64,000 bases of DNA from positions 1-64,000 of IMG/VR virus record IMGVR_UViG_3300022602_002157; one strand, given 5' to 3'. Under the pieces are notes generated by a model. The model was not told the DNA's origin, did no database searches, and worked only from the letters and a program-made list of their open reading frames with translations. Shown here piece by piece: positions 15,201-51,480 of this stretch. This stretch comes from a virus. Positions within the stretch are counted from its first letter, which is position 1; each line of letters opens with the position of its first letter. The position numbers and the translations under genes are program-made.

Positions 15201-17372
15201 ACATTAACTACAAATGCACAACCAAACATTACAAGTGTTGGTAGATTAACAAGTTTAATTGTTGATGGTAATATTAACGCAGGTAATATTGCAGGTGGTA
15301 ACTTAGTAAGTGCAAATTATTTTGCAGGTAGTGGTGCAAACTTAACAGCAATACCGGGTGCAAATGTAACAGGTACCGTAGCAAATGCGGCTTTTGCTAC
15401 TAATGCAATTGGTATTCAAACTAATACGTCAAGTGCAACATCTGCGTACCCAACATTTGTTACCTCATCATCAAATGGTAACTCACAGAATTATATTAAT
15501 TCAAGCATTAGTGCTAACTTAGCAAATGCTAGTATTACAGCAACAACATTTGTTGGTGCACTAAGTGGCGCCGCAACTACTGCTGGTACTGTAACAACTA
15601 ATGCACAGCCTAACATCACTAGTGTAGGTACATTAACAAGTTTAATTGTACAAGGTAATATTAATGCTGCCAACGTAGCAGGTGGTAATTTAGTAAGTGC
15701 AAATTATTTTGCAGGTAACGGATCGTTGTTGACTGCCATTACCGGTGCAAATATAACAGGTACTGTAGCAAATGCAAATTATTCTGTATACTCAGGTACT
15801 GCAAGTACAGCAAATGCGGTTGCAGGTGCAAACGTAACTGGCGCAGTAGCGTTTGCAACGACTGCTAACGCAGTCGCGGGAGCTAATGTATCAGGTGCTG
15901 TGGCATATGCAACTACAGCAAATGCGGTAGCAGGTGCTAACGTATCCGGTGTTGTTGCTAATGCCACTTATGCAGTTACAGCAGGTACAGCAAATAGTGT
16001 TGCCGGCGCTAACGTTACTGGAACTGTAGCAAATGCCACTTATGCAGTTACAGCAGGCAGCGCCACAACAGCAACTTCAGCAACGACTGCTGGTACAGTA
16101 ACAACTAATGCTCAACCAAATATTACAAGTACAGGTACATTAACATCATTAACTGTAACTGGTAACACAACATCAGGTAACTTTATTACAAGCGGCCAAT
16201 TTGTATCACAATTGGCAACGGGTACTGCACCTTTAGTTATTGTTTCTACAACAAGAGTTCCAAACTTAAACGCAGACTTAGTAGATGGATATCAAACAGC
16301 AACAGTCGCTACAGCAAATACCCTTGCAACACGTGATACAAATGGTAGTATTACTGCTAATATTTTCATTGGTAACATAGCAGGAGCCAACGTAACTGGC
16401 ACGGTAGCAAATGCAACGTATGCCGTAACGGCAGGTACTGCAAACTCGGTAACTGGTGCTAACGTAAGTGGTGCGGTAGCGTATGCAACAACTGCAAATT
16501 CAGTAGCTGGCGCTAATGTAACAGGTGCAGTAGCATACGCAACAACTGCTAACTCAGTTGCTGGTGCTAATGTATCAGGTACTGTAGCAAGTGCAAATAA
16601 CTCAAGTTATTTAGGCGGAACGGCAGCCGCAAGTTACCTATTAACAAATGGTACTGGTAGTGGTTTAACAGCAATCACAGGTGCTAACGTAACAGGTGCA
16701 GTTGCTTACGCAACCACTGCTAACTCAGTAGCCGGAGGCAATGTAAGTGGTGCGGTTGGTCTTGCAACATATGCTACAACTGCTAATGCTGTGGCAGGTG
16801 CTAACGTGTCAGGTGCAGTTGCTTATGCGACTACAGCAAATGCGATAGCAGGTGCTAACGTATCAGGAGCCGTGGCATACGCAACCACTGCTAACTCAGT
16901 AGCCGGCGGCAATGTAAGTGGACAAGTTGGTAACGCACTAGTTGCAGGTACAGTATATACGAATGCGCAACCTAACATTACAAGTACAGGTACATTAACA
17001 TCTATCAATTCAAGTGGTAATATTACTGGAGCAAACGTAATTGCAAATTCATATCATATTCGTTCAATTGGTACAGCAATATCAGCCGCAGGTTCAACAC
17101 AAGGTACCGCAACAGCATTAACTAAAGAAATTAACGTTGTCAGTACAGTAACATCAGGCGCTAATGGTGTACAATTACCAAACGTAGCAGGTGCTGTGAT
17201 TTATATTACAAACACAACAGGAAACACATTGAACGTTTACCCACAAACTGGTGCGGCAATCAATAATCAAACAGCAAATGCCGCATTTACAATGCCGGGT
17301 AATGGAGCAACACTACAGTTTATTGCACCTACTACAAGTCAGTGGTACACAGTAAGTGCAACATACTCATAA
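12210..17372 (+). CDS. Very long repetitive tail fibre / adhesin
   Basis: A 1720-aa protein. The N-terminal 45 residues (DFGTFPNDPSADAIRTAF, then VQDNFTQLF) resemble the virion-attachment region of the fibre-like gene at 20654. Most of the rest is degenerate repeats around TANAVAGANVSGAVAYATT (more than twenty), punctuated by longer units such as NALIAGTVYTNAQPNITSVG. These beta-rich low-complexity repeats are typical of trimeric fibre shafts. The final 110 residues are non-repetitive (GVQLPNVAGAVIYITNTTG) and likely form the host-binding tip. No chaperone domain was recognised. Confidence 0.8.
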   Translation: MAQQNIDFGTFPNDPSADAIRTAFQKVQDNFTQLFTGLEQQAVLSVNQTPGAGISVNAPTGNVVVSANISCVQISTTTLSVGTGSNNSSNAGGTAVITTSSQIAIVDLPSNIAGVNNISISGTLTANTVTANSSVSFPSLSLSGALVANTVTSNTTLAVTGNANVGNIGASTGIFSSNVQVTTNVTAGNVYANSGTVKATTLIGEGGNITNIQGVNVSGAVLLATYAGTANAVAGANVSGTVANATYAVTAGTANAVAGANVSGAVAYATTANAVAGANVSGAVAYATTANAVAGGNVSGQVGNALIAGTIYTNAQPNITSVGTLTSLAVTGNVSAANITGNHYGAGNNLSNIQGANVSGAVAYATTANAVAGANVSGVVANATYAVTAGTANSVAGANVTGTVANATYATSAGSIGGTVPGANVTGQVGNALIAGTVYTNAQPNITSVGTLTSLAVTGNVLAANLTGNHYGAGNNLSNIQGSNVSGAVAYATTANAVAGANVSGAVAYATTANAVAGANVSGAVAYATTANSVAGANVTGQVSFAGTANAVAGANVSGIVANANYAAYSGVAGSANSVTGSNVSGQVGNALIAGTVYTNAQPNITSVGTLSNLVVSSSGNISAGNIIANTVFIGNGAGLTNLAGANVTGAVAYASTANSVAGANVSGAVSYATTANSVAGANVSGAVAYATTANSVAGANVTGTVANATYALNAGNATVASSANSVTGANVSGAVAYATTANSVAGANVSGAVSYATTANSVAGANVTGTVANATYATTAGSATTSGTVTANAQGNITSVGTLTNLSVTGNTTSGNVYANSGIVKGEYLYGDGSNITNISVAAGSYILNGTSEASLDTNGNFNVTIAGNANVLQVTGSNVIASTFVGNLIGTINTGSQPNITSLGTLTSLNVTGVSNLGNVGNVKITGGVNNQYLITDGTGNLFWTTSTASPAVGSNTQIIFNDGGTTYNGSANLTFNKTTNTLSTGNVTASYFTGTLTTNAQPNITSVGRLTSLIVDGNINAGNIAGGNLVSANYFAGSGANLTAIPGANVTGTVANAAFATNAIGIQTNTSSATSAYPTFVTSSSNGNSQNYINSSISANLANASITATTFVGALSGAATTAGTVTTNAQPNITSVGTLTSLIVQGNINAANVAGGNLVSANYFAGNGSLLTAITGANITGTVANANYSVYSGTASTANAVAGANVTGAVAFATTANAVAGANVSGAVAYATTANAVAGANVSGVVANATYAVTAGTANSVAGANVTGTVANATYAVTAGSATTATSATTAGTVTTNAQPNITSTGTLTSLTVTGNTTSGNFITSGQFVSQLATGTAPLVIVSTTRVPNLNADLVDGYQTATVATANTLATRDTNGSITANIFIGNIAGANVTGTVANATYAVTAGTANSVTGANVSGAVAYATTANSVAGANVTGAVAYATTANSVAGANVSGTVASANNSSYLGGTAAASYLLTNGTGSGLTAITGANVTGAVAYATTANSVAGGNVSGAVGLATYATTANAVAGANVSGAVAYATTANAIAGANVSGAVAYATTANSVAGGNVSGQVGNALVAGTVYTNAQPNITSTGTLTSINSSGNITGANVIANSYHIRSIGTAISAAGSTQGTATALTKEINVVSTVTSGANGVQLPNVAGAVIYITNTTGNTLNVYPQTGAAINNQTANAAFTMPGNGATLQFIAPTTSQWYTVSATYS
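12895..16960 (+). repeat. Degenerate coding repeats of the fibre shaft
   Basis: Tandem and interspersed 50-60-base units encode variants of TANAVAGANVSGAVAYAT, with synonymous drift between copies. Some copies are near-identical over tens of bases (for example around 13680-13790), which would allow copy-number change by recombination. Confidence 0.85.
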
Positions 17373-17389
17373 TAGGAAAGAACAATACA

Positions 17390-18007
17390 ATGATTACACT
17401 TGATTTATTATCACACGTTTTCCCTAAAACACATCATGATGTGTTGGAAAGATATGTAGAACCATTATCAACAGTTGCACAATACTATGACATGTATGAC
17501 AATATACATAGAGTTGCATGTTTTGTAGCACAGACAGGCCATGAAAGTGGTGGTTTTAATTTTATCAAAGAAAATTTAAACTACAGTGAAAAGGGTTTGT
17601 TAACAACGTTCCATAAATATTTTGACGCAGAAACAGCAAGTCAATATGCAAGACAACCTGAAAGAATCGCTAATCGTGTTTATGCAAATCGCATGGGCAA
17701 CGGTGACGAATCTAGTGGTGACGGTTACATGTTTTGCGGCAGAGGCTTAATTCAGTTAACAGGTCGCATTAATTATACAAAATTTGCTCAAGCATTGGGA
17801 ATGGGTCTAGAAGACACAGTTGCATATATGGAAACTAGTGAAGGCGCAACTGCAAGTGCAGGTTGGTTTTGGGACAGTAACAATTTAAATCAATACTGTG
17901 ACAGTGGTGATTTTGTAATGTTAACCAAACGTATCAATGGTGGTACAATTGGTATTGAAGAAAGACATCGCAATTATCAATTAGTATTACAAGCATTACA
18001 GGGATAA
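17390..18007 (+). CDS. Endolysin, glycoside hydrolase family 19 (chitinase-like)
   Basis: A 205-aa muramidase-type lysin that would degrade peptidoglycan. It has the GH19 pattern: FVAQTGHESGGF with the probable catalytic Glu, then YSEKGLLTTF, ANRVYANRMGNG, and GYMFCGRGLIQLTGRINY followed by a Trp-rich ASAGWFWD region. The ATG at 17390 is preceded by AATAGGAAAG; an in-frame upstream extension overlaps the fibre gene and has no ribosome site. It has no signal peptide, so release would need a holin (see 27434). It sits between fibre genes rather than beside the holin. Confidence 0.88.
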   Translation: MITLDLLSHVFPKTHHDVLERYVEPLSTVAQYYDMYDNIHRVACFVAQTGHESGGFNFIKENLNYSEKGLLTTFHKYFDAETASQYARQPERIANRVYANRMGNGDESSGDGYMFCGRGLIQLTGRINYTKFAQALGMGLEDTVAYMETSEGATASAGWFWDSNNLNQYCDSGDFVMLTKRINGGTIGIEERHRNYQLVLQALQG

Positions 18008-36591: not shown

Positions 36592-39500
36592 ATGAGTTCA
36601 ATATTAAAAGGTATAACCATTAATGAAAGTCTGCAAGATGACTTTATTGAGTTAATGAAGTCTAAAGGTTACAATGTTAAGCCGCGTGGCAGTATTGAAC
36701 AACAAAAAGCAGAGCGTGACGCAATGTTGGCACAACGTGCTAAGGATCAGGCCAATGCGCCGGCGCCGGCTGCTCCAAGTCCAGAAGAAATTGCCAATGC
36801 TAAAGAAAAACTAGCACAACTAGAACGTGTGTTTGATAAGAATTATCAATACAGTGATGATCATAGTGTGTGGAGTAAAAACCACGATATCGCACAACAA
36901 ATCGGTAGTCTTAAAAAATTAATTGCACGTGGTGAGCAAGGTGTGGCGGAAGGCTCCGAGAACTTCAACGGCATAGACATTGACATGGACCTAGAAGGTG
37001 ACGAAATCATGGTGCGAGCCATGGCAAATGGTCGTGAACTGGGCCATGTGATTTTTGTGGAAGACGGAGAATATTTACTACCGCAGGATTTAGAAGTAGA
37101 CGAACGCTATCAAGGTCAAGGCATTGCCGCTACCATGTACGACTATGTAAAAAGCAAAGGTTATAAAATACGCCGCAGTTGCCGACAAACAGATGCAGGT
37201 GCTGGATTTTGGGCAAAACACCGTCCTAAACAAAATGTCTGGGAACAAGGTGTGGCGGAAGGCTCGGGCATGAATGTAGTCAAATCAGTCAAGGTAGGAA
37301 ACTTCAGACACGATTTGGTCAATACTGGAATGGGTTGGCAGGTTCGTATCTATAACGGTGATGAACTTTATGATACTGGGTTGAGCAAGAACTCTGAAGA
37401 AAAAGGTTTAGCCGCATTGGATAACTCAGTGGCATACACTAAAAAGCAACTAAACATTAAAGAGCAAGGTGTAGCGGAAAGTGAAAATAATAGTATTCCA
37501 CCCATTGGGATTAATGTGCGAAGCGACGGTGATATTGACTATGCTGATCTAATTGTTGATGGTAAAAAGAAATATGAATCCAGAAACACTGATAGCCTCA
37601 ACCCATATGTTGGGAAAACAGTTGGCATTATTAGAACCGGTAGTGGACCCGCAGTTGCAATTGGTCAAGCAACAATAGGCGAACCCATAGTAGCAGATGA
37701 AGAAAAGTTTAACAAACTTAGAAAAAAGCATCTAGTTCCAAAAGGTAGTAGGTTTGATATAGATAGCAATGGTACAAAATACTTGTATCCAATCATTGAT
37801 CCTGTACGCTGGGACGATGAAAAGTTGGTAAAGCAAAGGGGCATAGTTGCTAGAAAGATCGAAGAGCAAGGAGTGGCGGAAGGCGTTCCTCAACCTGGTA
37901 AATCATCTGGCAAACCTATATCTTGGATTGATCCTACCAAAGTTGTAACAAAATATCTAACGCTAGACGAGATATTCGATTCAGTATCAGGCATACCATA
38001 CTATAACAATGTTGTTGATGATCGTGACAAAAAAGACTTTACTTGGGGAGTAACTAAAAGAGTAATTCAATATGCAAAAGAATTAGTCACACGACCTGAT
38101 TCCTACAAAAACTGGCCTCCTATAATAGTCTTAGATGGCAAACTACAGGACGGGGCACATCGTATATCCACTATATACTTGATGCAACAAAGAGTTCAGC
38201 CAAACGACCCAATTTGGAAAAATGCTAAACTAAAAGTAGAATTTGGATCAAAAAATAATGTAAAGCAAGATATGGCGGAAGGCTCTTTGAATGAGTTCTC
38301 GATGGGCGATGACGGAGAAGATCCAACCGATAACTATCCTTGTTACGATTGCGGTAGCACTATATTCTTGCATCATACTAAACTATGTGATTTAGCAGAA
38401 GATAATGCCATACGAGATTTGCCAGCAAAACCAGGATCACAACATTGGACTGGTCAAATTCCAAAAGGATTACATCCTATTCCGGGATTACAGGAAGGAC
38501 AAGGTGTGGCGGAAGAAAAATGCCCACATTGCGGTGGTGAGTTAGTCAGTGAAGATATGATTAACGAAAAGAAAGATGCCTGCTACTACAAAGTCAAGAG
38601 CCGTTATAAAGTATGGCCCAGTGCATATGCAAGTGGTGCATTAGTTAAGTGCCGCAAAGCTGGTGCTAGTAACTGGGGCAATGGTGGAAAGAAAAATGAA
38701 AGTTCTATACTAGAAGGTATCGAGCAAGTTGATGAAAACTTACACCAATGGTTCAAAGAAAAGTGGGTACGATTTGGCCCCGATGGAAAGATTCGCGGTG
38801 ACTGTGCTAGAGGTAGTGATAGTGAAGGTAAGCCAAAATGTTTGCCACAAAGTAAAGCACATGCATTAGGTAAAAAAGGTCGTGCAAGTGCCGCTGCCAG
38901 AAAACGCAGAGAGGATCCTAATCCAGAACGTCATGGCCCAGCACACAATGTTGCCACTAAAAAGAAATCAAATGAAGCCGCTAATCCAGCACAACAGGCT
39001 GCTATTGCTATCAATATGAAAAAGCATCATCAAAAGCCAAAGAATGAGGCTGTTGGTGATGTCGATTTAGAATCAGCATATAGACGAGCCTTAGAAATTA
39101 CAAAACAAATTAAGTATGATGACACTGCAACACAAATCATTGTAGAAATTCAAATGCTTGCAGAAAAAACAGGCATCGATATGAAACAACTTAATTGGGC
39201 TATTGATGATGTGCGTGAAGCAAAAAATCAATTAGAAAGCGCCGTATATGGTCTTGATGAAGTATTCAAAGAGGCTATGGAACAACAGCAATATCGTGAT
39301 GAAGAAGGTATTGACGAAGATACAGCATATGGCGGTGGTATGGGTCAAGGTCACACAGGACAATCATATCGTAAGTTTACTCCAAAGAGTGCAGGTACAT
39401 TTAATGAAATGGATAGTTTCGATAACGGAACACACTATACACCTAAAATGGCAGGCACGTTTAAAGAAAGCAAATTAAAAGAAGAGCCAGATACATCAGG

Positions 39501-39750
39501 CCCAATTGGAACACAACCGGGTGGTTGGAGAACATATAGAGCAAAAAGTGCCGGCACAAAAATGAAAAAAGAAAGTTCTATTATGAAAGGTCTTAAAGAG
39601 ACTGATAGTACAGGAACTAGTGTAGGTTCAGCAGGTGCAGGTGGTGGTGCAATGGTAGGTGGCCCAACAACATACGAACAAGAGTTTGATCCTTTCAAGC
39701 GTAAGGGCGCAAGACGTATTACAGCAATGACATATGAAGGCAAAAAATAA
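36592..39750 (+). CDS. Mosaic polyprotein with QGVAEG seams
   Basis: A 1052-aa protein built of unrelated small domains separated by six QGVAEG-like seams at residues about 115, 218, 291, 425, 558 and 636. Between them I see a GNAT acetyltransferase (VDERYQGQGIAATMYDYVKS), a short beta unit, an ASCH-like domain (KKYESRNTDSLNPYVGK, GQATIGEP), a ParB-like domain (PPIIVLDGKLQDGAHRISTI), and zinc-binding units (CYDCGS, CPHCGGEL). The C-terminus has three TPKSAGTF-like repeats. V-A-E/G resembles the T4 gp21 site (I/L-x-E). I infer a packaged polyprotein cut into effectors during head maturation. Confidence 0.7.
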   Translation: MSSILKGITINESLQDDFIELMKSKGYNVKPRGSIEQQKAERDAMLAQRAKDQANAPAPAAPSPEEIANAKEKLAQLERVFDKNYQYSDDHSVWSKNHDIAQQIGSLKKLIARGEQGVAEGSENFNGIDIDMDLEGDEIMVRAMANGRELGHVIFVEDGEYLLPQDLEVDERYQGQGIAATMYDYVKSKGYKIRRSCRQTDAGAGFWAKHRPKQNVWEQGVAEGSGMNVVKSVKVGNFRHDLVNTGMGWQVRIYNGDELYDTGLSKNSEEKGLAALDNSVAYTKKQLNIKEQGVAESENNSIPPIGINVRSDGDIDYADLIVDGKKKYESRNTDSLNPYVGKTVGIIRTGSGPAVAIGQATIGEPIVADEEKFNKLRKKHLVPKGSRFDIDSNGTKYLYPIIDPVRWDDEKLVKQRGIVARKIEEQGVAEGVPQPGKSSGKPISWIDPTKVVTKYLTLDEIFDSVSGIPYYNNVVDDRDKKDFTWGVTKRVIQYAKELVTRPDSYKNWPPIIVLDGKLQDGAHRISTIYLMQQRVQPNDPIWKNAKLKVEFGSKNNVKQDMAEGSLNEFSMGDDGEDPTDNYPCYDCGSTIFLHHTKLCDLAEDNAIRDLPAKPGSQHWTGQIPKGLHPIPGLQEGQGVAEEKCPHCGGELVSEDMINEKKDACYYKVKSRYKVWPSAYASGALVKCRKAGASNWGNGGKKNESSILEGIEQVDENLHQWFKEKWVRFGPDGKIRGDCARGSDSEGKPKCLPQSKAHALGKKGRASAAARKRREDPNPERHGPAHNVATKKKSNEAANPAQQAAIAINMKKHHQKPKNEAVGDVDLESAYRRALEITKQIKYDDTATQIIVEIQMLAEKTGIDMKQLNWAIDDVREAKNQLESAVYGLDEVFKEAMEQQQYRDEEGIDEDTAYGGGMGQGHTGQSYRKFTPKSAGTFNEMDSFDNGTHYTPKMAGTFKESKLKEEPDTSGPIGTQPGGWRTYRAKSAGTKMKKESSIMKGLKETDSTGTSVGSAGAGGGAMVGGPTTYEQEFDPFKRKGARRITAMTYEGKK
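36934..38519 (+). repeat. Six interspersed copies of a 23-bp seam repeat
   Basis: Copies start at 36934, 37243, 37462, 37864, 38263 and 38497, with consensus core CAAGGTGTGGCGGAAGG. All are in the same reading frame and are GC-richer than the surrounding gene. The intervals (about 200-400 bases) each hold one domain. The fifth copy is the most diverged (CAAGATATGGCGGAAGG). Confidence 0.9.
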
Positions 39751-40190
39751 TGTTAGCAGATCAATTAAAAGTTTTATTAGGTAGTACATTTGTAGTTTAT
39801 ACAAAAACACATGGATTTCACTGGAATATTGAAGGCCCTGATTTCCCACAGTATCATAAGTTTTTGAAAAAAATGTATGAAGAAACTTATGAAACAATAG
39901 ATGTTATTGCTGAATACATTAGAACATTAGATAGTTATAGCCCAGGTAGTTTAGGTCGTATGCTTGAACTAACTATCATTGAAGAACAATATAAAATTCC
40001 ACGTGCTGAGTTAATGTTAGCAGAACTATTAGCAGACTGTGAAAAAATGATTGCGTTAGTTGTAGAAATTTTTAATGTTGCTACGCAAGAAAATCAACAA
40101 GGCATTGCAAATTACATGGCAGAGTTACAAGACCTTTATTCACAGAAGGCTTGGATGTTAAAAGCAACACTTAAGAAACAACGTGCATAA
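39750..40190 (+). CDS. dps: Dps-like ferritin (DNA protection during starvation)
   Basis: A 146-aa ferritin-like protein with the Dps ferroxidase pattern: HGFHWNIEGPDF, QYHKF and TIDVIAEYIRTLD give His24, His36, Asp51 and Glu55 at the intersubunit iron site. Dps oxidises Fe(II) with peroxide and can bind DNA. Slightly shorter than E. coli Dps (167 aa), lacking its Lys-rich N-terminal tail. It starts within the stop codon of the polyprotein gene (TAATG), so it is co-translated with it, and might protect or be packaged with phage DNA. Confidence 0.85.
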   Translation: MLADQLKVLLGSTFVVYTKTHGFHWNIEGPDFPQYHKFLKKMYEETYETIDVIAEYIRTLDSYSPGSLGRMLELTIIEEQYKIPRAELMLAELLADCEKMIALVVEIFNVATQENQQGIANYMAELQDLYSQKAWMLKATLKKQRA

Positions 40191-41302: not shown

Positions 41303-41641
41303 ATGAAAATTAATGAACTTTTTGAAAGCAAGCACGATGAATGGGATGAGGACGATGTTCCTAGTGTTCCTAGTGATCCTGATTCAGACAAAATTCCTCA
41401 TATTCTAATGCAAATGAAAAAAGCAATAGATGTACAGGGCAATTATCCTATCACATTTAAAGATGGCACTAAGACAAAAATTCCTCTTAGTGATATCGTT
41501 AAGTTTGTAGAAAAATACGTAACCCTTAAACCCATGGACCGCGAAAAAATGCAAGACGTAGCAGGTCAAAGCAAAGAAAACTTTGACATGATTCTAAAAC
41601 ATTTCCGCGGCGAAACAGCACCAAAGAGTATTTACCAATGA
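41303..41641 (+). CDS. Small internal-head-type protein with MKINELFES N-terminus
   Basis: A 112-aa protein starting MKINELFESKHDEWDEDD. The first nine residues repeat the start of the gene at 35831 with small changes, the style of a removable capsid-targeting peptide. The rest (PHILMQMKKAIDVQGNYPIT, LSDIVKFVEKYVTLKPMDRE) is a compact alpha/beta domain that I do not recognise. It overlaps the secreted nuclease gene by 4 bases. Confidence 0.55.
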   Translation: MKINELFESKHDEWDEDDVPSVPSDPDSDKIPHILMQMKKAIDVQGNYPITFKDGTKTKIPLSDIVKFVEKYVTLKPMDREKMQDVAGQSKENFDMILKHFRGETAPKSIYQ

Positions 41642-42471
41642 AAAAAATTATTTTAATGTTATCATTAGTCCTATCAGGACTAATCTATAGTACACCTAGT
41701 TTTGCTTGGAATCAGCGTCAGCCATTCCCAGTACAGCAATGTCAAGCACATGCCCCATATGGCTTTCCTAATGCACAAGGTGTACAACCATTGTGTCAGC
41801 AAGCGTATCTAGTTGGTTACGATGCGGCTGCAAAACTTCCTAAATTTGTAACTTATGAACTACTTCCACAAAACGCTATTGGCTGTGTTGCTCGCACAAA
41901 TGCTTTTGCTACTAATCAATTTGTACCAAATGGAGCCACTCCCGGCGATTACGCTGGTACAGGATACGACAAAGGGCACATGGCTCCAGATGGAGACTTA
42001 TCATGGGACACTCAAGTTGAATTTGAATCCTTTTTAATGACTAACATGAGTCCACAAGCAGGCTCATTAAATCGCGGTATTTGGAAGTTGTTAGAAACTA
42101 GTGTACGTGGTTGGGCAGTACAGCGCAATCAAAGTTACACAGTTTATGTTGGTGGTATCTATGGCCCCGGCGACAAGACAATTGGTAAGGGCGTAGTTGT
42201 TCCTCATGCTTTCTATAAGATTGTTATCAACAATCAAACTAAAGAGATTGCAGGTTGGGCATTCCCACACGTTGCACCATATCCTAACTTAGGTAATGAT
42301 TTAACTAAGTTCCGTGTTCCAGTACAACAGATTGAACAGCAAGCAGGTGTTCAATATGCATTCCCACAAGGTGCAATTGAATTGCAACCTGGCAAAGAAT
42401 GGCCTGTTGACTTCGGTGCTCTTACAAATGCAAAACGTGCCAAATGCGGCGCAAATGCAAGTAACGATTGA
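41638..42471 (+). CDS. Secreted DNA/RNA non-specific endonuclease
   Basis: A 277-aa NUC1-family nuclease. A Sec signal peptide (MKKIILMLSLVLSGLIYS, cleaved near FAWNQ) precedes the catalytic motif YDKGHMAP, the D-R/K-G-H site of NucA/EndoG enzymes with general-base His, and TNMSPQ followed by NRGIWKLLE, which supplies the metal-binding Asn. It should act in the periplasm or outside the cell on DNA and RNA. Six Cys may form disulfides. It is the first of a run of exported proteins; it may block incoming phage DNA or release nucleotides. Confidence 0.88.
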   Translation: MKKIILMLSLVLSGLIYSTPSFAWNQRQPFPVQQCQAHAPYGFPNAQGVQPLCQQAYLVGYDAAAKLPKFVTYELLPQNAIGCVARTNAFATNQFVPNGATPGDYAGTGYDKGHMAPDGDLSWDTQVEFESFLMTNMSPQAGSLNRGIWKLLETSVRGWAVQRNQSYTVYVGGIYGPGDKTIGKGVVVPHAFYKIVINNQTKEIAGWAFPHVAPYPNLGNDLTKFRVPVQQIEQQAGVQYAFPQGAIELQPGKEWPVDFGALTNAKRAKCGANASND

Positions 42472-42549
42472 TAATCAATATCCGGTGTATCCTGAGGACG
42501 ATGGCACAGATCGTCCCAGGAACCCATACAGCCCAGTATAGGAGTCTCA

Positions 42550-42942
42550 ATGAAAAAACTTACTGCATTACTAGTTTTAATATCACTAACAGGCTGCGCA
42601 CAAGTAGGTAAACTCACAGATATGATTCCAAGTCGTTGGGATCCTAATCAAAGCAAAATTGTTACAGACCTTCGTCAAAGCACACAAAATTTTGATTGTT
42701 CACAAGATGTTTCTAGTCAGTTAAAAAACATCTATGCTGAAGTTCAATGGTTTGAATTATACAGCGAAAGCAAGAACACAAAAGACGTACTACACCTTGT
42801 AGAAACACTAAAAGACACAACAACTGAATTCAATGATAGATTGAAACAGGGACCAGTAAGTCCATTGTATTGTGATCTAAAGAAAAAAATCTTAATACAA
42901 GAAGCCGATACAATTGCACATACTGTGCAAGGGAGATGGTAA
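42550..42942 (+). CDS. Predicted lipoprotein
   Basis: A 130-aa protein with a lipoprotein signal: MKKLTALLVLISLTGC ends in the lipobox LTGC, so Cys16 would be lipidated. The mature part is charged and helical with two further Cys (FDCSQD, LYCDLKKK). AGGAG lies upstream of the ATG. Function unknown; it could be an outer-membrane spanin-like partner or part of the exported cassette. Confidence 0.7.
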   Translation: MKKLTALLVLISLTGCAQVGKLTDMIPSRWDPNQSKIVTDLRQSTQNFDCSQDVSSQLKNIYAEVQWFELYSESKNTKDVLHLVETLKDTTTEFNDRLKQGPVSPLYCDLKKKILIQEADTIAHTVQGRW

Positions 42943-42943
42943 C

Positions 42944-43180
42944 ATGCAACAACAATTAGAACAACTAGCAACAGTTAACGCACCATGGGCACAACAACGT
43001 GCCCAATATGCATTGCAAGTAGGACAGGCTGTTCAACAAGGACAGTTAAGTCCAAGTGAGGCTAAAGAAATATTAGCCGATTTAATCAACGTAGATAAAC
43101 TAAACCAAGAAGCCTCAGACGATGAAATGAGAGCGGCATTAGTGTTTGGTGTTACACAACTAGCAATGATGCTAGGTTAA
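42944..43180 (+). CDS. Small helical Gln-rich protein
   Basis: A 78-aa protein, all-helical in appearance (QQQLEQLATVNAPWAQQRAQ, SPSEAKEILADLINVDKL). It starts 1 base after the lipoprotein gene with GGGAGATGG as ribosome site. It has no signal peptide, so it is probably a cytoplasmic partner in the exported-protein operon. Function unknown. Confidence 0.55.
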   Translation: MQQQLEQLATVNAPWAQQRAQYALQVGQAVQQGQLSPSEAKEILADLINVDKLNQEASDDEMRAALVFGVTQLAMMLG

Positions 43181-43184
43181 AAGA

Positions 43185-43248
43185 ACTCAGCCTTAGGACC
43201 GAGTACGCGGCTACTGCGTGAACAAATAGAATTCGCTACTCTATTTGT
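43185..43248 (+). ncRNA. Three consecutive hairpins, possible structured RNA
   Basis: ACTC/GAGT (43185-43204), ACGC/GCGT (43205-43219) and ACAAATAGA/TCTATTTGT (43222-43248) follow one another with almost no spacing in a 173-base non-coding gap. The third stem is a perfect 9 bp. No U-run follows. It does not fold as a tRNA. It could be a 3' UTR element or small RNA. Confidence 0.4.
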
Positions 43249-43301
43249 CAAAGTGAGCACCTACCAACTTATTGTATACATATATTTCGCTTGCCGGTTG
43301 T

Positions 43302-43309
43302 ATTAAATA
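43302..43309 (+). promoter_or_regulatory. Late promoter-like ATTAAATA
   Basis: Weaker octamer variant (TAAATA core) 44 bases before the ATG at 43354, in the only large gap of the exported-protein cassette. Confidence 0.3.
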
Positions 43310-43353
43310 CATACTCATATTGTACTTACAACAATAATAATAAAGGTGAAAAT

Positions 43354-44868
43354 ATGAAAAGAATACTAAAAGCAATTGGTACATCAGTCCTTATGGCCGC
43401 ATTGTCAGTCAATGCCCTAGCACAATCTACCAGTACTACGGGAACATCTTCTGCAAACAGCAGTGGAACCATTACAAATAATAATACATTAATCAATCAA
43501 GGTGGATATAGTTCAAGTTCACTGGTTGATACTAATAGCACAAGCAACAGTACTAGTGCTGTTTTTACAAATAGCAATACAAACAGCAACAGTAATAGCA
43601 CAAGTACTTCAACTGTTAATAGTAACAGTAACTCAACTGCTACGGCTACAAATAACAATAATAACGTTAGCACCAGTACTAGCACTTCAGTTAATACAAA
43701 CAACAATATTCAAAGTGGTACTGTAACTAACATCAATCAGAATACCAACAATGGTACTATGACGTATAACAATAACAACGTCAATAGTGGTACAATGACC
43801 TATAATAACAACAACGTTAATACAGGTACAATGACCAACAACAATAATAACGTTAATACATCAACTTCATCAAGCACTAGTGTTAATACAAACAACAATG
43901 TTAATACTGGTACTATGACATATAATAACAACAACGTTAATGCGTCAACTTCAACTAGTACAAACGTTAATACAAATAATAATATTAACAGTGGTACTAT
44001 GACATATAACAATAATAATGCAAGTACTTCATCAAGCACTAACGTTAATACAAATAACAATATTAACAGTGGTACAATGACTTACAATAATAACAATGTA
44101 AGCACAAGTAACAATGTTAATACAAACAACAATATTAACAGCGGTACAATGACATATAATAACAATAATGTCACAACTAGCAACAACGTTAATCAAAATA
44201 ATAACGTCAATACTAGTACGAGTACAGCAACCAACACCAATAACAATAATAATGTAAGCACCAGTAACAATGTTAACCAAAATATTAACACTGGTACAAT
44301 GACTAACATTAACCAAAATACATCTGCGGTAACAAGTCAAAACACTAATACTAACAATAACAACAATAATAGTACTAGCAACAACGTCAACCAAAACATT
44401 CAAAGTGGTAGTATGACAAATAACAATAACAATAACAGTAACATTACTGAAAAAGTTATTCAGCCTCCACCAACAGCAGTTGCTCCTGCAATGTTAAGTG
44501 GTGGTAACCCTGATCTATGTACAACAGGTACTAGTGGTTCAGTACAAACACAAATCTTTGGCGTTGCTAGTGGTGGTACTAACCGTGACATGAATTGCGA
44601 AAGATTAAAAATCTCTAAAACACTTTATGACATGGGCATGAAAGTAGCCGCTGTTGCTACAATGTGTCAAGACCGTCGTGTATTTGACGCTATGATGGCA
44701 GCAGGCACCCCTTGCCCATACGAAGGTAAAATTGGTGATCAAGCCAAAGACGAGTGGGAAACACATCCAGAAAAACTACCAAAAGTAGAAAAGGAAAAGA
44801 GAGATGACACATATGAAAAAGTGGGCATTGGCGCTTTGCTTGGTGCTCTTGTCTTCAAACTTTTCTAA
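43354..44868 (+). CDS. Exported Asn/Thr/Ser-rich repeat protein
   Basis: A 504-aa protein. A signal peptide (MKRILKAIGTSVLMAALSV, cleaved near ALAQ) is followed by about 350 residues of Asn/Thr/Ser repeats such as NNNINSGTMTYNNNNV, resembling prion-like or amyloid-forming sequence. Then comes a Cys-containing domain (GNPDLCTTGTSGSVQTQIFG, NCERLKISKTLY, MCQDRRVFDAMMAAGTPCPY) and a hydrophobic C-terminus (KVGIGALLGALVFKLF). RBS AAAGG. It probably goes to the periplasm or cell surface. Its end overlaps the next gene in another frame. Confidence 0.7.
   Translation: MKRILKAIGTSVLMAALSVNALAQSTSTTGTSSANSSGTITNNNTLINQGGYSSSSLVDTNSTSNSTSAVFTNSNTNSNSNSTSTSTVNSNSNSTATATNNNNNVSTSTSTSVNTNNNIQSGTVTNINQNTNNGTMTYNNNNVNSGTMTYNNNNVNTGTMTNNNNNVNTSTSSSTSVNTNNNVNTGTMTYNNNNVNASTSTSTNVNTNNNINSGTMTYNNNNASTSSSTNVNTNNNINSGTMTYNNNNVSTSNNVNTNNNINSGTMTYNNNNVTTSNNVNQNNNVNTSTSTATNTNNNNNVSTSNNVNQNINTGTMTNINQNTSAVTSQNTNTNNNNNNSTSNNVNQNIQSGSMTNNNNNNSNITEKVIQPPPTAVAPAMLSGGNPDLCTTGTSGSVQTQIFGVASGGTNRDMNCERLKISKTLYDMGMKVAAVATMCQDRRVFDAMMAAGTPCPYEGKIGDQAKDEWETHPEKLPKVEKEKRDDTYEKVGIGALLGALVFKLF
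43660..44440 (+). repeat. AT-rich coding repeats for NNNVNxGTMTYNNNN units
   Basis: Degenerate 40-60-base units rich in AAT/AAC codons, encoding NNNVNTGTMTYNNNN and variants; copy number could change by recombination or slippage. Confidence 0.8.
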
Positions 44869-47512
44869 CGCACAAACTGTTAGTGTAAATAGTACCAGTG
44901 GTCAAGTAGATACTGCTGGTACTGTAGCAAGTTCAGGTAATGTGCTAAACCTAGGTGGTGGATTACCATGGGATAATACTGTAACAGGACAAGCAGGTGG
45001 TCTTAGCGGTGGTTGGACTCCTGCGTATAATCCCAATACTGGCAATATCATTTTTGGTTATAACAATCAAACAGTAAGTCAAACAGTTGCAATCAATCAA
45101 GCACTATCTAAAGCAGGTACAGGTATACAACTATCAGGATATAGTTATTCATGGGGTATCAACAACGACTTGAACAATGGTAGTGGTAACAGAGGCACAC
45201 TAACCGGCAATGTTAGTTTAAATAATCCAAATGGGTATTCATTAGAAAGTTACAACTATGATTATAGTGGTGTAAACACAGGTGGAAACTTTCAAACATT
45301 TAACGGTACGCAAATGTTTTCTAATCAATATCAACTATCTCAAGTGTCTTCAATTACAGTAAGTTTTACAGGTCATGATCAAAACTGGTGGGCTGGTTAT
45401 TGGGGCCCTAGAGTTCACGTTAATGATTTTAGTTTATTGTATAGTGTAAACCCTTGTACTACTAATCCTGCATATAGTCCTAGTTGTTCAGGTTTTAGTA
45501 AGATTGTTACCAGTGATAACTTATTACCAAATCCAAATCTAGTAGTTAGCGGTGATGCTGTAGGATACAATAGTTTTGCAGTTAATACTGCACTTAAAAA
45601 TAGTGGTTCAGGTGTTGAAGTTTACGGATTTAATTATGGTTACAATTATAGTTTAGGCAACGGCACATATGGATGTACTGCTACTAACCAAGATGGTTCT
45701 TGCAGTTGGTATATGACAACTAATCCATCTGCACAGGTAAAAGTACGATTAACAGATAGTTCTAATAATCAAATTTATCTAGCAGGACAAAATTGGTCAA
45801 CACCGAATACTGCGGCAAATGTGTCATATCAATTTTTACTTCCCAGCACAACAAATTCAACATCATTAGGTACATTTACTATGGGCGCATTGACCTCAGG
45901 TAATGCGGCAGTTCAAAATATGTTTGCTACTGCATTATATAAACCTGATCCATGTGTATCAAATCCATTATCTAGTACAAGTTGTCCTGGTTATGCAGCC
46001 GCGTATGCTCAACAATTAGCATTAAATTCTATTTCATCATCATCTACATCATCAGGTAATAGTAATGCTAACACAGCACAGACTGTGGCAAATCAAGCAC
46101 AGCAGGCTGCACAGCCTGCTCCCGCACCGGCAAATCCTGCACCACAACCTGCTCCTCAACCACAACAGCAACAAAGTGATCCAACTCAACAGGCAGCGGC
46201 ACCTGCAACACAATCACAACCTGCTCCTCAACAACAACAGCAACAAGCACAGAACTCTGGGCAACAACAAGCACAACCTGCAGGTCAAGTTCAAGTTGTG
46301 CAAACAAGTGATCCCAAAGCAAATTTACCAGCCGCACCACAACAGGCTGCAAATCAACCAGGAGCACCTAGTGCTGGCACACAACCAGTTGCGCAAGCAG
46401 GACAGCCTCAACAATCTGCACCAAAAGCAGGTGGTCCAAGTAATTTGTCTACAGCATTAAGTACAATTGCTAAAAACCAAGAACAACAAAAACAAATTGA
46501 AACTACCACTGTACAAGCGTCAATTGCGCAAGCAAATCAAGCAAGTGCAACTGCACAACAAACTGCACTAAATGTTGTAAGTGCTGTTAATAATTCAGTT
46601 GCCGCAAGTTCTGCCCAATCAGTATCAACTGCAAACGCTGTTGCTACCACTTCAGTTGCTAGTGGTTCTTCAAGTACTTCAAGTTATAATAGTAACTCAC
46701 AAATGAGTATTCAAACAGGTGTTACTAGTTCAACTCAATCAGTATTAAGCGCATCACAAGCATTAGCAAGTTCAAGTAGCACTAGAACTTCTACAACTAA
46801 TCAAAATAACATAGTAAGTACAAATGTTACTCAAACTACACAAACTACTAGTGTGTTTGCTCCTACAACTACACAAGTTACATCTACAAGTAATGCAACA
46901 AATACCAATACAAACATTCAAGCAAGTAATCCAGTTGCTAATGTTCAACAAACTCAAACTGTAGCAACTAGTACTTCAACGTTACCAACTAATAATACAC
47001 CTACTGTGCAAAATAGTTTACAGCAAAATCAAAATGCAGGTGCTGTTGCGATTCAAACACCTCAACAGCAATCTACAATGGTAGCAAGTGTTCAACAATC
47101 TTCATTATATTCACTAACACCAAACACTACTTTTGGTACAACAGTAGAAACAATCAATAATAACAATGTTAATCTATTGAGTAGAACAAGTCCTATTGCT
47201 GAGGCAATAAATAAAGCACCAACAATAGATACAAATACCAAAACTGAAACAGCAAATAATCAACCTGCTGTTAATCAGAAAGTAGAACAGAATGAATTAG
47301 CAGGTAAAGTAGAACTTGCTAAAATGGCAATTGCCCCTACTAACTATGGAAGTTACTTAAACTTCACATTAAAGGATGCGGCATTCTATGCGCCAAAAGA
47401 AATTTATAGAAATCAATCTACGGTTGATAATAGCAGAGCGTTAAGGAAGTTAAGTTCAGACAGTTTATTTGAAAAAATGGTCGAACTACAATACAAGGAG
47501 AGTAAACAATGA
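44804..47512 (+). CDS. Exported Gln/Ala/Ser-rich surface-type protein
   Basis: A 902-aa protein with a signal peptide starting at its second Met (MKKWALALCLVLLSSNFSNA). Residues about 40-370 form a beta-rich region with two similar units (AVNTALKNSGSGVEVYGFNY versus AINQALSKAGTGIQLSGYSY). The next 500 residues are Gln/Ala/Pro/Ser/Thr-rich low complexity, followed by a short helical end. ATG at 44804 has GGAAAAGAGAG upstream; 44813 is an alternative. It overlaps the preceding gene by 65 bases in a different frame. Confidence 0.7.
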   Translation: MTHMKKWALALCLVLLSSNFSNAQTVSVNSTSGQVDTAGTVASSGNVLNLGGGLPWDNTVTGQAGGLSGGWTPAYNPNTGNIIFGYNNQTVSQTVAINQALSKAGTGIQLSGYSYSWGINNDLNNGSGNRGTLTGNVSLNNPNGYSLESYNYDYSGVNTGGNFQTFNGTQMFSNQYQLSQVSSITVSFTGHDQNWWAGYWGPRVHVNDFSLLYSVNPCTTNPAYSPSCSGFSKIVTSDNLLPNPNLVVSGDAVGYNSFAVNTALKNSGSGVEVYGFNYGYNYSLGNGTYGCTATNQDGSCSWYMTTNPSAQVKVRLTDSSNNQIYLAGQNWSTPNTAANVSYQFLLPSTTNSTSLGTFTMGALTSGNAAVQNMFATALYKPDPCVSNPLSSTSCPGYAAAYAQQLALNSISSSSTSSGNSNANTAQTVANQAQQAAQPAPAPANPAPQPAPQPQQQQSDPTQQAAAPATQSQPAPQQQQQQAQNSGQQQAQPAGQVQVVQTSDPKANLPAAPQQAANQPGAPSAGTQPVAQAGQPQQSAPKAGGPSNLSTALSTIAKNQEQQKQIETTTVQASIAQANQASATAQQTALNVVSAVNNSVAASSAQSVSTANAVATTSVASGSSSTSSYNSNSQMSIQTGVTSSTQSVLSASQALASSSSTRTSTTNQNNIVSTNVTQTTQTTSVFAPTTTQVTSTSNATNTNTNIQASNPVANVQQTQTVATSTSTLPTNNTPTVQNSLQQNQNAGAVAIQTPQQQSTMVASVQQSSLYSLTPNTTFGTTVETINNNNVNLLSRTSPIAEAINKAPTIDTNTKTETANNQPAVNQKVEQNELAGKVELAKMAIAPTNYGSYLNFTLKDAAFYAPKEIYRNQSTVDNSRALRKLSSDSLFEKMVELQYKESKQ

Positions 47513-48075
47513 CAGAAGAAATTAAAAGTGTTGATGAAAAAATCGACCAAGTAGAAGACGCAGTAAAGAAGTATGCGAGTAAAGATACAGTTATTAGCAT
47601 TGGTGGGTATGAATTTACACCAGCAAAACTAATGGTTGCATTCACAATTGCATCTTCAATACTAGGTGGACTTTATGGTTGCTTTGAAGTGTATAAAGAC
47701 TATCAAAGTATGAGATACAAAATTGACCATTACGTTGCACCAGACTTGTCAGAATTTGACAAGCGTTTAGCAGTACTAGAAAAGAATAGCCAACAGGCTA
47801 CTGACTATACTTCAGAAATCAAGACAGATTTGAAAAACGATATCCGTCGTTTGGATACTGTTGTTGATGATGTTGAACGTAATGCTAAACAAAGCCAACG
47901 TGAAACTGATGCCCAAGTAAGAGATATGCGTACCGAAATGCGTAGTATCCATACTGATGTTGATGCTACACTAAAAGCCAATACTAAAGAAACTCAAGCC
48001 CAAATGAAAGAGTTGAAAGCAGAATTGGATAGTAAAATCAAAAAGGCATTGGATAACCCATTAGCAAACAAGTAA
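47509..48075 (+). CDS. Single-pass membrane protein with long coiled coil
   Basis: A 188-aa protein. One membrane segment (LMVAFTIASSILGGLYGCF, about residues 39-58) is followed by about 120 residues of charged coiled coil (DFDKRLAVLEKNSQQATDYT, TEMRSIHTDVDATLKANTKE). It has no cleavable signal. Overlap by ATGA with the preceding exported protein shows co-translation. This layout could suit an inner-membrane spanin subunit (Rz-like) or an anchor for the exported proteins; the lipoprotein at 42550 could be its partner. Speculative. Confidence 0.6.
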   Translation: MTEEIKSVDEKIDQVEDAVKKYASKDTVISIGGYEFTPAKLMVAFTIASSILGGLYGCFEVYKDYQSMRYKIDHYVAPDLSEFDKRLAVLEKNSQQATDYTSEIKTDLKNDIRRLDTVVDDVERNAKQSQRETDAQVRDMRTEMRSIHTDVDATLKANTKETQAQMKELKAELDSKIKKALDNPLANK

Positions 48076-48111
48076 TGCAATAACTATTAATTTTATTGTC
48101 ATGTTTGACAT

Positions 48112-48119
48112 GCTAAATA
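48112..48119 (+). promoter_or_regulatory. Late promoter-like GCTAAATA
   Basis: TAAATA-core octamer 48 bases before the outer-membrane protein ATG at 48168. Confidence 0.3.
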
Positions 48120-48167
48120 TTATTAGTGTTGTCTCAAAAACAACACGTTAACTTAAAAAGGAAAATT

Positions 48168-48722
48168 ATGAAAAACTTAGTAACAGCGTTAGTATTGGCA
48201 GTAGCGATTCCTACAATGGCACTCGCAGGTGAAGTATCTGGTGAGTATCGTGCAGGAACAAATTCAGGCCCAACTGGATACGACTTTCAGGCAGCAGGTT
48301 CTATAGGCAAGATCAATTTGGGTGCAGAAGTTGAATCAATTCAACCTAAGCATGAAGGTGCAGTTGCCGATTTGTTCGCAGTTAAAGCCGGTCCTCAATT
48401 ACCAGAAGTCGCTGGATTCAAGCCAGTCGCTAATTTGCAATTGGGTCGTAGCGAAACAACAGGTAAGGACTTTGATTTCTACGGTGTAGATTTAGGAGTT
48501 TCACACTCTGTATTTGGTCCAGTATCAGCATCAGTTGAATATCGCCGTCGTCAAGGCTTTAAGGCTGAAAACTTAAAGCAAGACCGTTTAAGCGCAGGCT
48601 TAGAAATGGCTTTCAACAAGAAGACTGCTTTAACAGCAACTTACTACCGTGATCGTAACGATCTAGTTGCTACAAATAAAGATAGCAACGTAATCGGTGT
48701 TGGTTTAAAGCATAGTTTCTAA
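48168..48722 (+). CDS. Outer-membrane beta-barrel protein
   Basis: A 184-aa protein. A signal peptide (MKNLVTALVLAVAIPTMALA) is followed by alternating polar/apolar strands (VSGEYRAG, FQAAGSIGKINLGAEVESIQ, PVSASVEYRRRQGF, KTALTATYYRDRND) and a last strand ending in KHSF. C-terminal Phe after alternating residues is the BAM recognition signature. The size fits an 8-stranded barrel. ATG at 48168 follows AAAAAGGAAAA. A phage-made barrel in the host outer membrane may alter receptors or exclude other phages. Confidence 0.8.
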   Translation: MKNLVTALVLAVAIPTMALAGEVSGEYRAGTNSGPTGYDFQAAGSIGKINLGAEVESIQPKHEGAVADLFAVKAGPQLPEVAGFKPVANLQLGRSETTGKDFDFYGVDLGVSHSVFGPVSASVEYRRRQGFKAENLKQDRLSAGLEMAFNKKTALTATYYRDRNDLVATNKDSNVIGVGLKHSF

Positions 48723-49529: not shown

Positions 49530-49561
49530 ACATGCATGATTCAATAAAAAGGAGAATACTC

Positions 49562-50260
49562 ATGAGTTCAGCAAAAGAATTTGTTGCGAAAATCGTAGCA
49601 GACAACCAAGCACTTTTCGAAGCATCAAAGATTAATGTCAAGGCTTACTTTGACAGCAATCCTAGCCAAGAAGCGTTAGTTGAGCATTTCGTTGGCCGTA
49701 TGGTTAACGAGCGTATGAACATGGTAGAAATCAGCAAAGCAATTGCTGATATGCCTGCAAACGCAGACCCAGTAGAGTTACAATTGTTAACTCAACAAGC
49801 ACATGATGAAGCAGTACACTTCCGTTTAGTTAAGGAAGTTATTGAACACATCACTGGTTCAGAATTAGACGTTGAAGCCGCAATCGCTGCCGAGGCTGCA
49901 AAGCCAACAGCAAAAGGTGCTGGTCTTCTTGCTAAGTATGAAGCAGAAACAGATGCAGCCGCATTAGCAGCCTATCAATTAGTTGCTGAAGGTCGTGCTG
50001 AAGCCGTTTGGAATCAAATGGCAGAATGCATTTCTGATGAATTCATCAGTGGCGCATATGCTAAGATTGCTAAGGACGAAGGTTTCCACAGCAAGATTGG
50101 CGCACGTAAATTAGAAACTTTAGTATCAGACGAAGCAACACAAGTTCGTATTGAGAAGTTAGTTGCTAATATGCGTAAAGACTTATTCGAAATTAGTTGC
50201 AAGAACACAATGGAAGTTCCAGCTGCTAAAGAATTAGTTTCAGCCGCTTACGGATGGTAA
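49562..50260 (+). CDS. Ferritin-like di-iron protein
   Basis: A 232-aa helical protein. Two helix pairs carry metal-ligand-like residues: EHFVGRMVNERMNMVEIS, QQAHDEAVHFRLVKEVIE, AEAVWNQMAECISDEF and IAKDEGFHSKIGAR. The E-x-x-H spacing in AHDEAVHF and DEGFH is the ferritin-like di-iron pattern. It is not a Dps or bacterioferritin by sequence; an oxygenase or oxidase is likely. ATG at 49562 follows AAAAAGGAG. It opens an operon of amidotransferase-like, cupin, sulfotransferase-like and 2OG oxygenase genes. Confidence 0.65.
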   Translation: MSSAKEFVAKIVADNQALFEASKINVKAYFDSNPSQEALVEHFVGRMVNERMNMVEISKAIADMPANADPVELQLLTQQAHDEAVHFRLVKEVIEHITGSELDVEAAIAAEAAKPTAKGAGLLAKYEAETDAAALAAYQLVAEGRAEAVWNQMAECISDEFISGAYAKIAKDEGFHSKIGARKLETLVSDEATQVRIEKLVANMRKDLFEISCKNTMEVPAAKELVSAAYGW

Positions 50261-50261
50261 T

Positions 50262-50813
50262 TTGAAAATAGGATTAAGTCAACGAATCCTATTTCATAAA
50301 GGGAGGGCGTATGATTGTATAGAACATGGTTGGTACAACCTGTTAAGCGATCATACGCTTTTCTATTTGCCTAATAGATTAGATCAGGATTTTGATAGTA
50401 TAGCAGACAACTTGGATGCGTTCATTATCACAGGTGGTGATGACAGCACACTAAGACGTACAGTTGAGATTAAGTTAGCAACTAAAGTTATGCAACGTAA
50501 TAAACCAGTGATTGGAGTATGCCATGGTGCATTTTTAATTACTGATTTATTAGGTGGTGTAGTAGAAGAAGTTGAACATCACATGGATACTACTCATTTT
50601 GTAATGTACAATGGTGATGTAGTAGATGTGAATAGTTATCACAACTTAGCAATTAAAAAATTACATAATAGCGGTACAGCATTATGTATAGATGAATCGG
50701 GAAACATAGAATCATTTATCGATGGCAAATTAGCAGGTATAGTATGGCACCCAGAAAGAATGAAGACACCGTGGATGCCTAATGAAATTAAACAATTGAT
50801 TGGAGTAAAATAA
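50262..50813 (+). CDS. Class I glutamine amidotransferase-like / gamma-glutamyl hydrolase-like protein
   Basis: A 183-aa GATase1-fold protein: DAFIITGGDD, catalytic Cys in VIGVCHGAFLI, and the His/Glu pair in GIVWHPERM complete the Cys-His-Glu triad. Being free-standing and short, it resembles peptidase C26/PuuD-type hydrolases. The start is TTG, 1 base after the stop of the di-iron gene, with GGATGG as a weak ribosome site. It could handle a gamma-glutamylated intermediate or supply ammonia to a partner. Confidence 0.75.
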   Translation: MKIGLSQRILFHKGRAYDCIEHGWYNLLSDHTLFYLPNRLDQDFDSIADNLDAFIITGGDDSTLRRTVEIKLATKVMQRNKPVIGVCHGAFLITDLLGGVVEEVEHHMDTTHFVMYNGDVVDVNSYHNLAIKKLHNSGTALCIDESGNIESFIDGKLAGIVWHPERMKTPWMPNEIKQLIGVK

Positions 50814-50814
50814 A

Positions 50815-51480
50815 ATGATGCGAAATGTTAAAGGTGTTTTTAACACAAGCGATAGATGGCCATTAAAACTCACCAAAGTTGAAAGTAATGAATCTAAAAA
50901 GATGGATAAAACGCCCGGTACATATTATGTACTTACACGTAATGCTGACTTGATCGGAGACAATGTAAAGTTTGAAAAAGTTAACGGGGCATTTTGTTTT
51001 AATCATCATTTTACTGTTAGATGCGGGCCGCAATCATCTGCTGTCATCATTGAATATTTAGGATTACATTTAGAAGAAAGCAGATATTATGTACAGCAAG
51101 ATTTGGGTATAGGAAACTTAAGTTATATGGATGGTGGTACAAACACAACTGCTGTTAATCCAGGTCGTTTAGGAGATCCAGTAGTTAACTATGTACACTT
51201 TCCTGCAAACATGTACCAAACATTGCATACACATCCAAGCCATAGAATTGGGATGATATTAAAAGGCAATGGTAAAATCGAATTAGATAACGAAGAATAC
51301 TTTGACGTAAATGAGGGTGAAGTATTTTTTATGCAAAGAAACGTATTACACAATTTTATCACAGAAGACGAACCTGTAGTATTATATGTGTTTGCTCCTG
51401 ACAGTGGTACAGGTCCTACCGATGAAGTCAATCCATTAAAGATCAGAACTTACGTTGGACAACAACGATATACAAGATGA
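50815..51480 (+). CDS. Cupin-domain protein
   Basis: A 221-aa protein. The C-terminal half is a cupin: QTLHTHPSHRIGMILKGNGK gives the HxH metal pair and first motif, and NEGEVFFMQRNVLHNF the second motif with a further His. The N-terminal half may be a second, degenerate barrel (FNHHFTVRCG, SAVIIEYLGLH). Cupins include sugar isomerases and dioxygenases. The start may be either of two adjacent ATGs. It overlaps the next gene by 4 bases. Confidence 0.75.
   Translation: MMRNVKGVFNTSDRWPLKLTKVESNESKKMDKTPGTYYVLTRNADLIGDNVKFEKVNGAFCFNHHFTVRCGPQSSAVIIEYLGLHLEESRYYVQQDLGIGNLSYMDGGTNTTAVNPGRLGDPVVNYVHFPANMYQTLHTHPSHRIGMILKGNGKIELDNEEYFDVNEGEVFFMQRNVLHNFITEDEPVVLYVFAPDSGTGPTDEVNPLKIRTYVGQQRYTR

Follow-up and report, generated by a model that had tools for sequence, protein, structure and literature searches.

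Virus record IMGVR_UViG_3300022602_002157 carries seven successive genes, most of them encoding proteins with predicted export signals, and the question raised by this locus is whether they act together on the host envelope and what they would do there. The window analysed here is a 64,000-nucleotide part of this 77,382-bp record. An earlier note, made from the sequence alone, had read the run as an envelope cassette of a lytic phage. All seven genes it listed were found, in the order it gave and on the + strand, with likelier start codons for three of them (the small protein at 42944, the Asn-rich protein at 43354 and the barrel at 48168). The start of the Asn-rich protein is an ATG, MKRILKAIGTSVLMAALSVNALAQ. 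A signal peptide and lipobox scan of the whole window, which is a simple heuristic and not SignalP, gave five positives, every one inside the cassette: the nuclease, lipoprotein, Asn-rich, Gln-rich and barrel genes. The envelope theme of the note was right in that the cassette is a non-random cluster of exported and envelope proteins, three of which form its conserved core. The tail sheath of the phage is related to those of giant T4-superfamily myophages, e.g. PA5oct and Phosso, by which it would be a giant T4-superfamily-like myophage from freshwater; a lytic lifestyle is plausible.

A three-gene module in unrelated aquatic phages

The genes for the Asn-rich protein (A), the Gln-rich protein (B) and the membrane coiled-coil protein (C) are a tight module with the same order and strand. 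In the window it consists of:

43354..44868, + strand, protein A: signal peptide, Asn/Thr/Ser array, four-Cys domain and hydrophobic C-terminal tail
44512-44775 (approximate), + strand, conserved four-Cys domain of A
44804..47512, + strand, protein B: signal peptide, two beta-sandwiches, Gln/Pro/Thr/Ser-rich stretch, helix and conserved C-terminal tail
47509..48075, + strand, protein C: one predicted N-terminal membrane segment, coiled coil and C-terminal NPL tail (DNPLANK)

Protein C was searched in viral contigs, which gave more than 560 relatives, 80 of which were kept. A tblastn search with the cassette proteins found the Gln-rich gene in 78 of 82 loci and the Asn-rich gene in 64, always upstream of the coiled-coil gene and in unchanged order; the nuclease, lipoprotein, small protein and barrel were found in two or three loci each. 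The C-terminal Cys domain of A gave tblastn matches in Pelagibacter phages, Roseobacter phages and spring-water contigs, and the gene maps of these matches again display A-B-C. In Pelagibacter phage HTVC115P the trio is present with hardly any Asn-rich repeat. A profile-guided scan added 80 marine loci. A hidden Markov model of the A domain matches in 177 of 189 loci. Within 5 kb downstream of A, 131 of the 132 loci with enough sequence have an open reading frame (ORF) whose product carries NPL, followed by 0-5 residues, at its C-terminus; such an ending occurs in 15 of 10,092 other ORFs. B is flanked by A and C in 143 of 148 loci.

Scattering in relatives had been named as the observation that would speak against a cassette. 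The A-B-C core keeps its order and strand at nearly every locus, while the other four genes do scatter, and we therefore reject the seven-gene cassette as one inherited unit; across relatives only the inner three genes stay together. That exported genes, each useful by itself, came together by chance and do nothing jointly is quite improbable as an account of the whole cassette, but it does hold for four of the seven: the nuclease, lipoprotein and small protein form a separate group and the barrel is private. For A-B-C it is refuted by an order kept across unrelated phages.

The carriers comprise giant myophages, Kyanoviridae (Mosig), Autographiviridae (AP013540), podoviruses of the HMO-2011 type, a type to which HTVC033P belongs (PMC9038755), and Roseobacter phages. 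HTVC202P, a siphovirus-like pelagiphage with A-B-C, has genes for a tape measure and a minor tail protein. The A proteins of HTVC023P and Mosig are 56% identical, which suggests that the module has been exchanged between phage types. Among 84,980 species genomes of bacteria and archaea we found only 16 A-B-C loci, none of them in a sequenced isolate and all on contigs of metagenome-assembled or single-cell genomes, and we therefore regard A-B-C as a phage family.

The families of A and C are known without function in PHROGs, where PHROG 20531 matches A (E 7e-8) and PHROG 18138 matches C (E 5e-5); the link between the three genes is not stated there. No paper found in the open-access literature describes the module. 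Some existing labels look incorrect. The 'lysozyme' genes at L088:7162-7584 (CRP-810 gp51) and L090:3292-3873 (CRP-207 gp73) encode C proteins by sequence, and the 'OmpA family protein' at L088:5776-6531 (CRP-810 gp53) is an A protein without an OmpA-like C-terminus. The module thus gives many 'hypothetical proteins' a shared context and corrects the lysozyme misannotations.

Layout of the three proteins

The domain of A is new; it spans some 90 residues, in which four cysteines are almost invariant. An AlphaFold 2 (AF2) model predicts a beta hairpin and helices with moderate confidence (predicted local distance difference test score, pLDDT, 70; predicted template modelling score, pTM, 0.48). 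This moderate model gave no structural match in the PDB, and the sequence gave none either. A has no match in Pfam and hence no curlin repeat, so it does not qualify as a curli-type amyloid protein.

The array of A in the window is about 360 residues long and includes 126 Asn, 73 Thr and 59 Ser. In 42 distinct sequences, which are related so that the counts are not independent, GTMT-like motifs are spaced by an even number of residues 247 times and by an odd number 0 times. Thr is found in one register in 93% of cases (2,051:146), counted over all four codons. Val and Ile share the register of Thr, and the opposite one is preferred by Gly, Ser and Asn. No such register effect is seen in the Gln-rich stretch of B, used for comparison (6,417 even, 6,254 odd). 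DNA slippage in hexamers is an unlikely source of the two-residue register, because all four Thr codons hold it and the Gln-rich stretch of B does not display it. The Asn-rich stretch is not random low complexity. Insertions and deletions in it have clearly been accepted in even numbers only. The strict register implies a beta strand array or beta-solenoid, and the alternation of in and out residues expected of a beta-solenoid or beta-fibre is found in the array at the level of sequence. A protein of apparent low complexity thus obeys a strict beta register.

The array is long in many freshwater phages only. It is missing or short in all marine members, where A has a short spacer that is less strongly biased in register, and about ten freshwater A proteins lack it. 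We therefore consider the array an elaboration and not part of the core.

The beta-sandwiches of B are located at about residues 70-395 and the helix at residues 548-605, according to the alignment and the AF2 model. In the model of the window protein the sandwiches have pLDDT values mostly above 85, and Foldseek ranks a CBM22 tandem (E 1e-7, prob 1.00) and other glycan-binding domains highest; whole-chain TM-scores are low because of the disordered regions. In line with this, two marine B records are annotated 'putative carbohydrate binding domain'. B is thus predicted to have the beta-sandwich fold of a carbohydrate-binding module, and it shares both fold and tandem arrangement with CBM22-type and other carbohydrate-binding beta-sandwiches. 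Unlike CBM22-type modules it has no sequence family match, and it belongs to a phage module in the lysis region, not to a glycanase.

In the window B begins 65 nt before A ends (44804-44868), and 45 of 69 freshwater loci have an overlap of similar length, 64 or 67 nt. The DNA that encodes the signal peptide of B therefore doubles as coding sequence for A's tail. For C, a search for solved relatives returned chance coiled coils only.

The scanner called a signal sequence in 65 of 69 freshwater members of the A family and in 69 of 76 members of the B family. These calls argue against A and B being virion-associated, as fibre or decoration, with N-termini that merely resemble signal peptides. The module does lie beside tail-fibre or terminase genes in some phages and the sandwiches of B look glycan-binding, as this account would have it, but the conserved cysteines suit the periplasm and C has a membrane segment. 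We consider it most improbable.

A proposed spanin-like role and its rivals

The likeliest single reading, and still a tentative one, is that A-B-C makes a late envelope-spanning complex that aids host opening in a spanin-like manner. In brief, the three proteins would be parts of one phage-made complex bridging the Gram-negative envelope in the last phase of infection. C would be placed in the inner membrane, its coiled coil ending in the conserved NPL tail, and A and B would be exported through Sec. The four-Cys domain of A would fold in the oxidising periplasm and serve as an adaptor, and the beta-alternating Asn/Thr array would be a spacer or fibre of variable length. The sandwiches of B may bind a glycan, either peptidoglycan or an outer-membrane or surface sugar, and the conserved tail of B would join A or C. 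Together with the action of holin and endolysin, the complex would help to rupture the outer envelope or strip it off so that the phage is released, a task like that of spanins by proteins unrelated to them. Complex formation, localisation, glycan binding and the lysis role are what we infer.

Two-component spanins (lambda Rz/Rz1, T7 18.5/18.7) combine an inner-membrane coiled-coil protein with an exported partner, as A-B-C is predicted to do, and like them A-B-C is found near holin, endolysin and terminase genes. The differences are that A-B-C consists of three genes and not two, that B has a glycan-binding-like fold, and that most A and B proteins are exported with an ordinary signal peptide and not as lipoproteins. 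In the window both carry signals of the signal peptidase I type, not the lipobox of an o-spanin; a few marine A and B proteins have ambiguous lipobox-like signals. The Rz family PF03245 scored above cut-off in 0 of 16 A-B-C records. No sense-strand lipobox ORF was found in four A-B-C phage genomes (one scanned to 50 kb) by a scan that recovers T7 18.7 and lambda Rz1. By these family tests A-B-C proteins are not spanins. The releasin gp25 of phage Mu is a DUF2730 protein (PMC9239132). C of AP013540 is annotated DUF2730, and both have a small N-terminal membrane segment and an acidic helix. C is always accompanied by A and B, whereas releasins are not, and we rejected A-B-C as a Mu releasin, as PF10805 (DUF2730) was above cut-off in 0 of 16 records.

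The link to lysis comes from the neighbouring genes. In 14 of 25 marine loci with full context (A less than 85% identical) an endolysin and/or holin-like gene is found within 5 genes, a count for which the families were picked from the neighbourhood itself and confirmed in part. Mosig has GTA_holin_3TM above cut-off just upstream of A, and HTVC023P has an M15 endolysin immediately after C. In AP013540 the module is located between small-membrane or holin-like genes and the terminase pair, close to the place of holin, Rz and Rz1 in T7; HTVC200P, of the same genus, has other small membrane genes at that site. In two other phages A-B-C directly precedes the large terminase. The freshwater locus L019 has the order B, C, a 46-aa gene, lipoprotein, small protein, GH19 endolysin and three-transmembrane (3TM) holin, and L039 has C, two small genes and GH19. 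An unbiased test of endolysin distance, using 44 whole records and four endolysin families, found an endolysin within 4 kb in 7 of 15 marine records, when 2.9 such records were expected (p 0.014).

Several observations weigh against a spanin-like role. The marine excess gives p 0.04-0.13 at other distance limits and p 0.05-0.21 when relatives are collapsed, and the same test found no excess of endolysins near A-B-C in the freshwater giants. In the window phage itself the candidate endolysin gene is some 24 kb away from the cassette:

17342..18007, + strand, GH19-type endolysin candidate (Pfam PF00182, E 2e-5, which falls slightly short of the curated cut-off; the PHROG 181 endolysin of L019 belongs to the same family)

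The T4-type late promoter TATAAATA is absent upstream of A and not above chance in the window. An i-spanin is inserted N-in and has a periplasmic, often coiled-coil domain, and the charges flanking the one membrane segment of C do not fix its direction. HTVC010P has neither A-B-C nor lipobox proteins, so missing spanins are not special to A-B-C phages. In the T4-like marine loci L093 and L103 an Rz-like spanin lipoprotein lies upstream of A, and A-B-C is therefore no simple replacement for spanins. The idea of a plain replacement is weakened by both cases.

Lysis-gene neighbours, weighed against these spanin counter-cases, led us to rank the spanin-like late role first and a coat, fibre or exclusion role next. 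The latter would be a surface or periplasmic fibre or coat in which the array of A is the fibre or beta-solenoid, B provides glycan-binding sites and C is the anchor, and which hides receptors, keeps out superinfecting phages or makes infected cells stick to each other. We find this rather doubtful. The two-residue register at the amino-acid level and the glycan-binding-like fold of B suit it, as does the enrichment of exported proteins near A-B-C in freshwater relatives (12% versus 5.8% of families, p 0.014), and the lipoproteins weakly resemble the Cor exclusion family. This resemblance is confined to the signal sequence, and lysis genes are commoner than exclusion genes among the neighbours. 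As the array is missing or short in many members, a fibre cannot be the conserved function. The earlier note had proposed that the cassette stops other phages or makes a surface matrix. No test supports superinfection exclusion in particular, and the neighbourhoods point more to lysis genes; the strict beta-type alternation in the Asn-rich array makes the surface matrix somewhat more credible. The barrel and lipoprotein of the window resemble porin-type and Cor-type exclusion proteins in broad type only, the barrel being private and the Cor matches of the lipoprotein covering its signal sequence only.

A scaffold that reinforces or remodels the envelope, keeping a thin-walled aquatic host intact or retuning its envelope while a large phage goes through a long infection, is distinctly unlikely. 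Freshwater neighbours of A-B-C include a D-Ala-D-Ala carboxypeptidase, a metallophosphoesterase, an SDF symporter, a substrate-binding protein and an Asp/Glu racemase, as would fit a scaffold. Such neighbours vary by lineage and switch sides of the module, and A-B-C also occurs in small phages (32-60 kb).

Returning to the spanin-like role, outer-membrane opening by phages of abundant aquatic bacteria, e.g. Pelagibacter, is largely undescribed in the literature searched, and 0 of 5 Pelagibacter-type phage genomes scanned had a lipoprotein spanin on the sense strand. A-B-C is a concrete candidate, being conserved, moving between phage types and often located among lysis genes. A bolder version, which we consider somewhat unlikely, is that A-B-C is a new three-part, phage-only envelope-spanning machine common to unrelated aquatic phages, with a disulfide-type domain, a glycan-binding protein, an NPL docking tail and a length-tunable beta array, that opens or controls the Gram-negative envelope without the spanin mechanism.

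Accessory genes and neighbouring regions

The remaining four genes of the cassette are:

41638..42471, + strand, secreted DNA/RNA non-specific endonuclease: signal peptide, DKGH active-site motif, Pfam PF01223
42550..42942, + strand, lipoprotein of 130 aa with lipobox LTGC
42944..43180, + strand, small cytoplasmic protein of 78 aa from the ATG at 42944, partner gene of the lipoprotein
48168..48722, + strand, porin-like outer-membrane barrel: signal peptide, Pfam PF13609

A Pfam scan of the seven proteins identified the nuclease as Endonuclease_NS and the barrel as Porin_4 (E 5e-7); the other five have no curated Pfam family. The nuclease belongs to PF01223 by its domain match (E 3e-42, residues 39-241) and the DxGH motif in YDKGHMAP. 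It matches the solved Anabaena-type nuclease and EXOG/EndoG, and was aligned to 2o3b.

The lipoprotein and the small protein are a fixed pair in 31 of 31 other loci, in 15 of which the nuclease is located upstream. Neither A nor C was found within 4 kb on each side of these other pairs. The nuclease, lipoprotein and small protein are thus a recurrent group of their own, separate from A-B-C, and because this group recurs apart from A-B-C the window joins two recurrent groups and a private barrel. In L231 the pair follows an Rz/Rz1-like pair, and in L019 it is the pair that separates C from the GH19 endolysin and the 3TM holin. The PHROG matches of the window lipoprotein, including Rz/Rz1-type ones, cover the signal region only, and Pfam and PHROG searches gave no family match for the small protein. 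The barrel is private to the window phage; elsewhere in viral contigs it was found on one near-identical contig only, and no solved relatives were found.

Other genes were observed around A-B-C in relatives. Some 15 freshwater loci have, immediately next to A-B-C, a four-gene cassette encoding an SBP_bac_3 binding protein, an SDF dicarboxylate symporter, a small membrane protein and an Asp/Glu racemase (e.g. L026:9000-12760, L050:1-6600 and L056:10600-15000). Both its side relative to the module and its strand vary. A D-alanyl-D-alanine carboxypeptidase (Peptidase_S11) with a signal peptide is found near A-B-C in freshwater giants, at L047:5337-6071 and in 14 further loci. At L189:5141-5715 and L191:5474-6048 a pair of small genes encodes a protein with a membrane segment and coiled coil, and a two-Cys protein. 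Pairs of this type occupy the position before the terminase in Autographiviridae pelagiphages that lack A-B-C; in others they are interleaved with A-B-C.

Upstream of the cassette, positions 36592-39750 of the window encode a 1,052-aa protein in which repeated 'EQGVAEGS'-like linkers separate segments that look unrelated. It is followed by a Ferritin-like/Dps-type gene (39750-40190), and genes of similar length are found upstream of the nuclease in many relatives. After the cassette, positions 49532-52181 hold a metabolic-looking run encoding an iron-oxygenase-like protein, a peptidase C26/GATase and a cupin.

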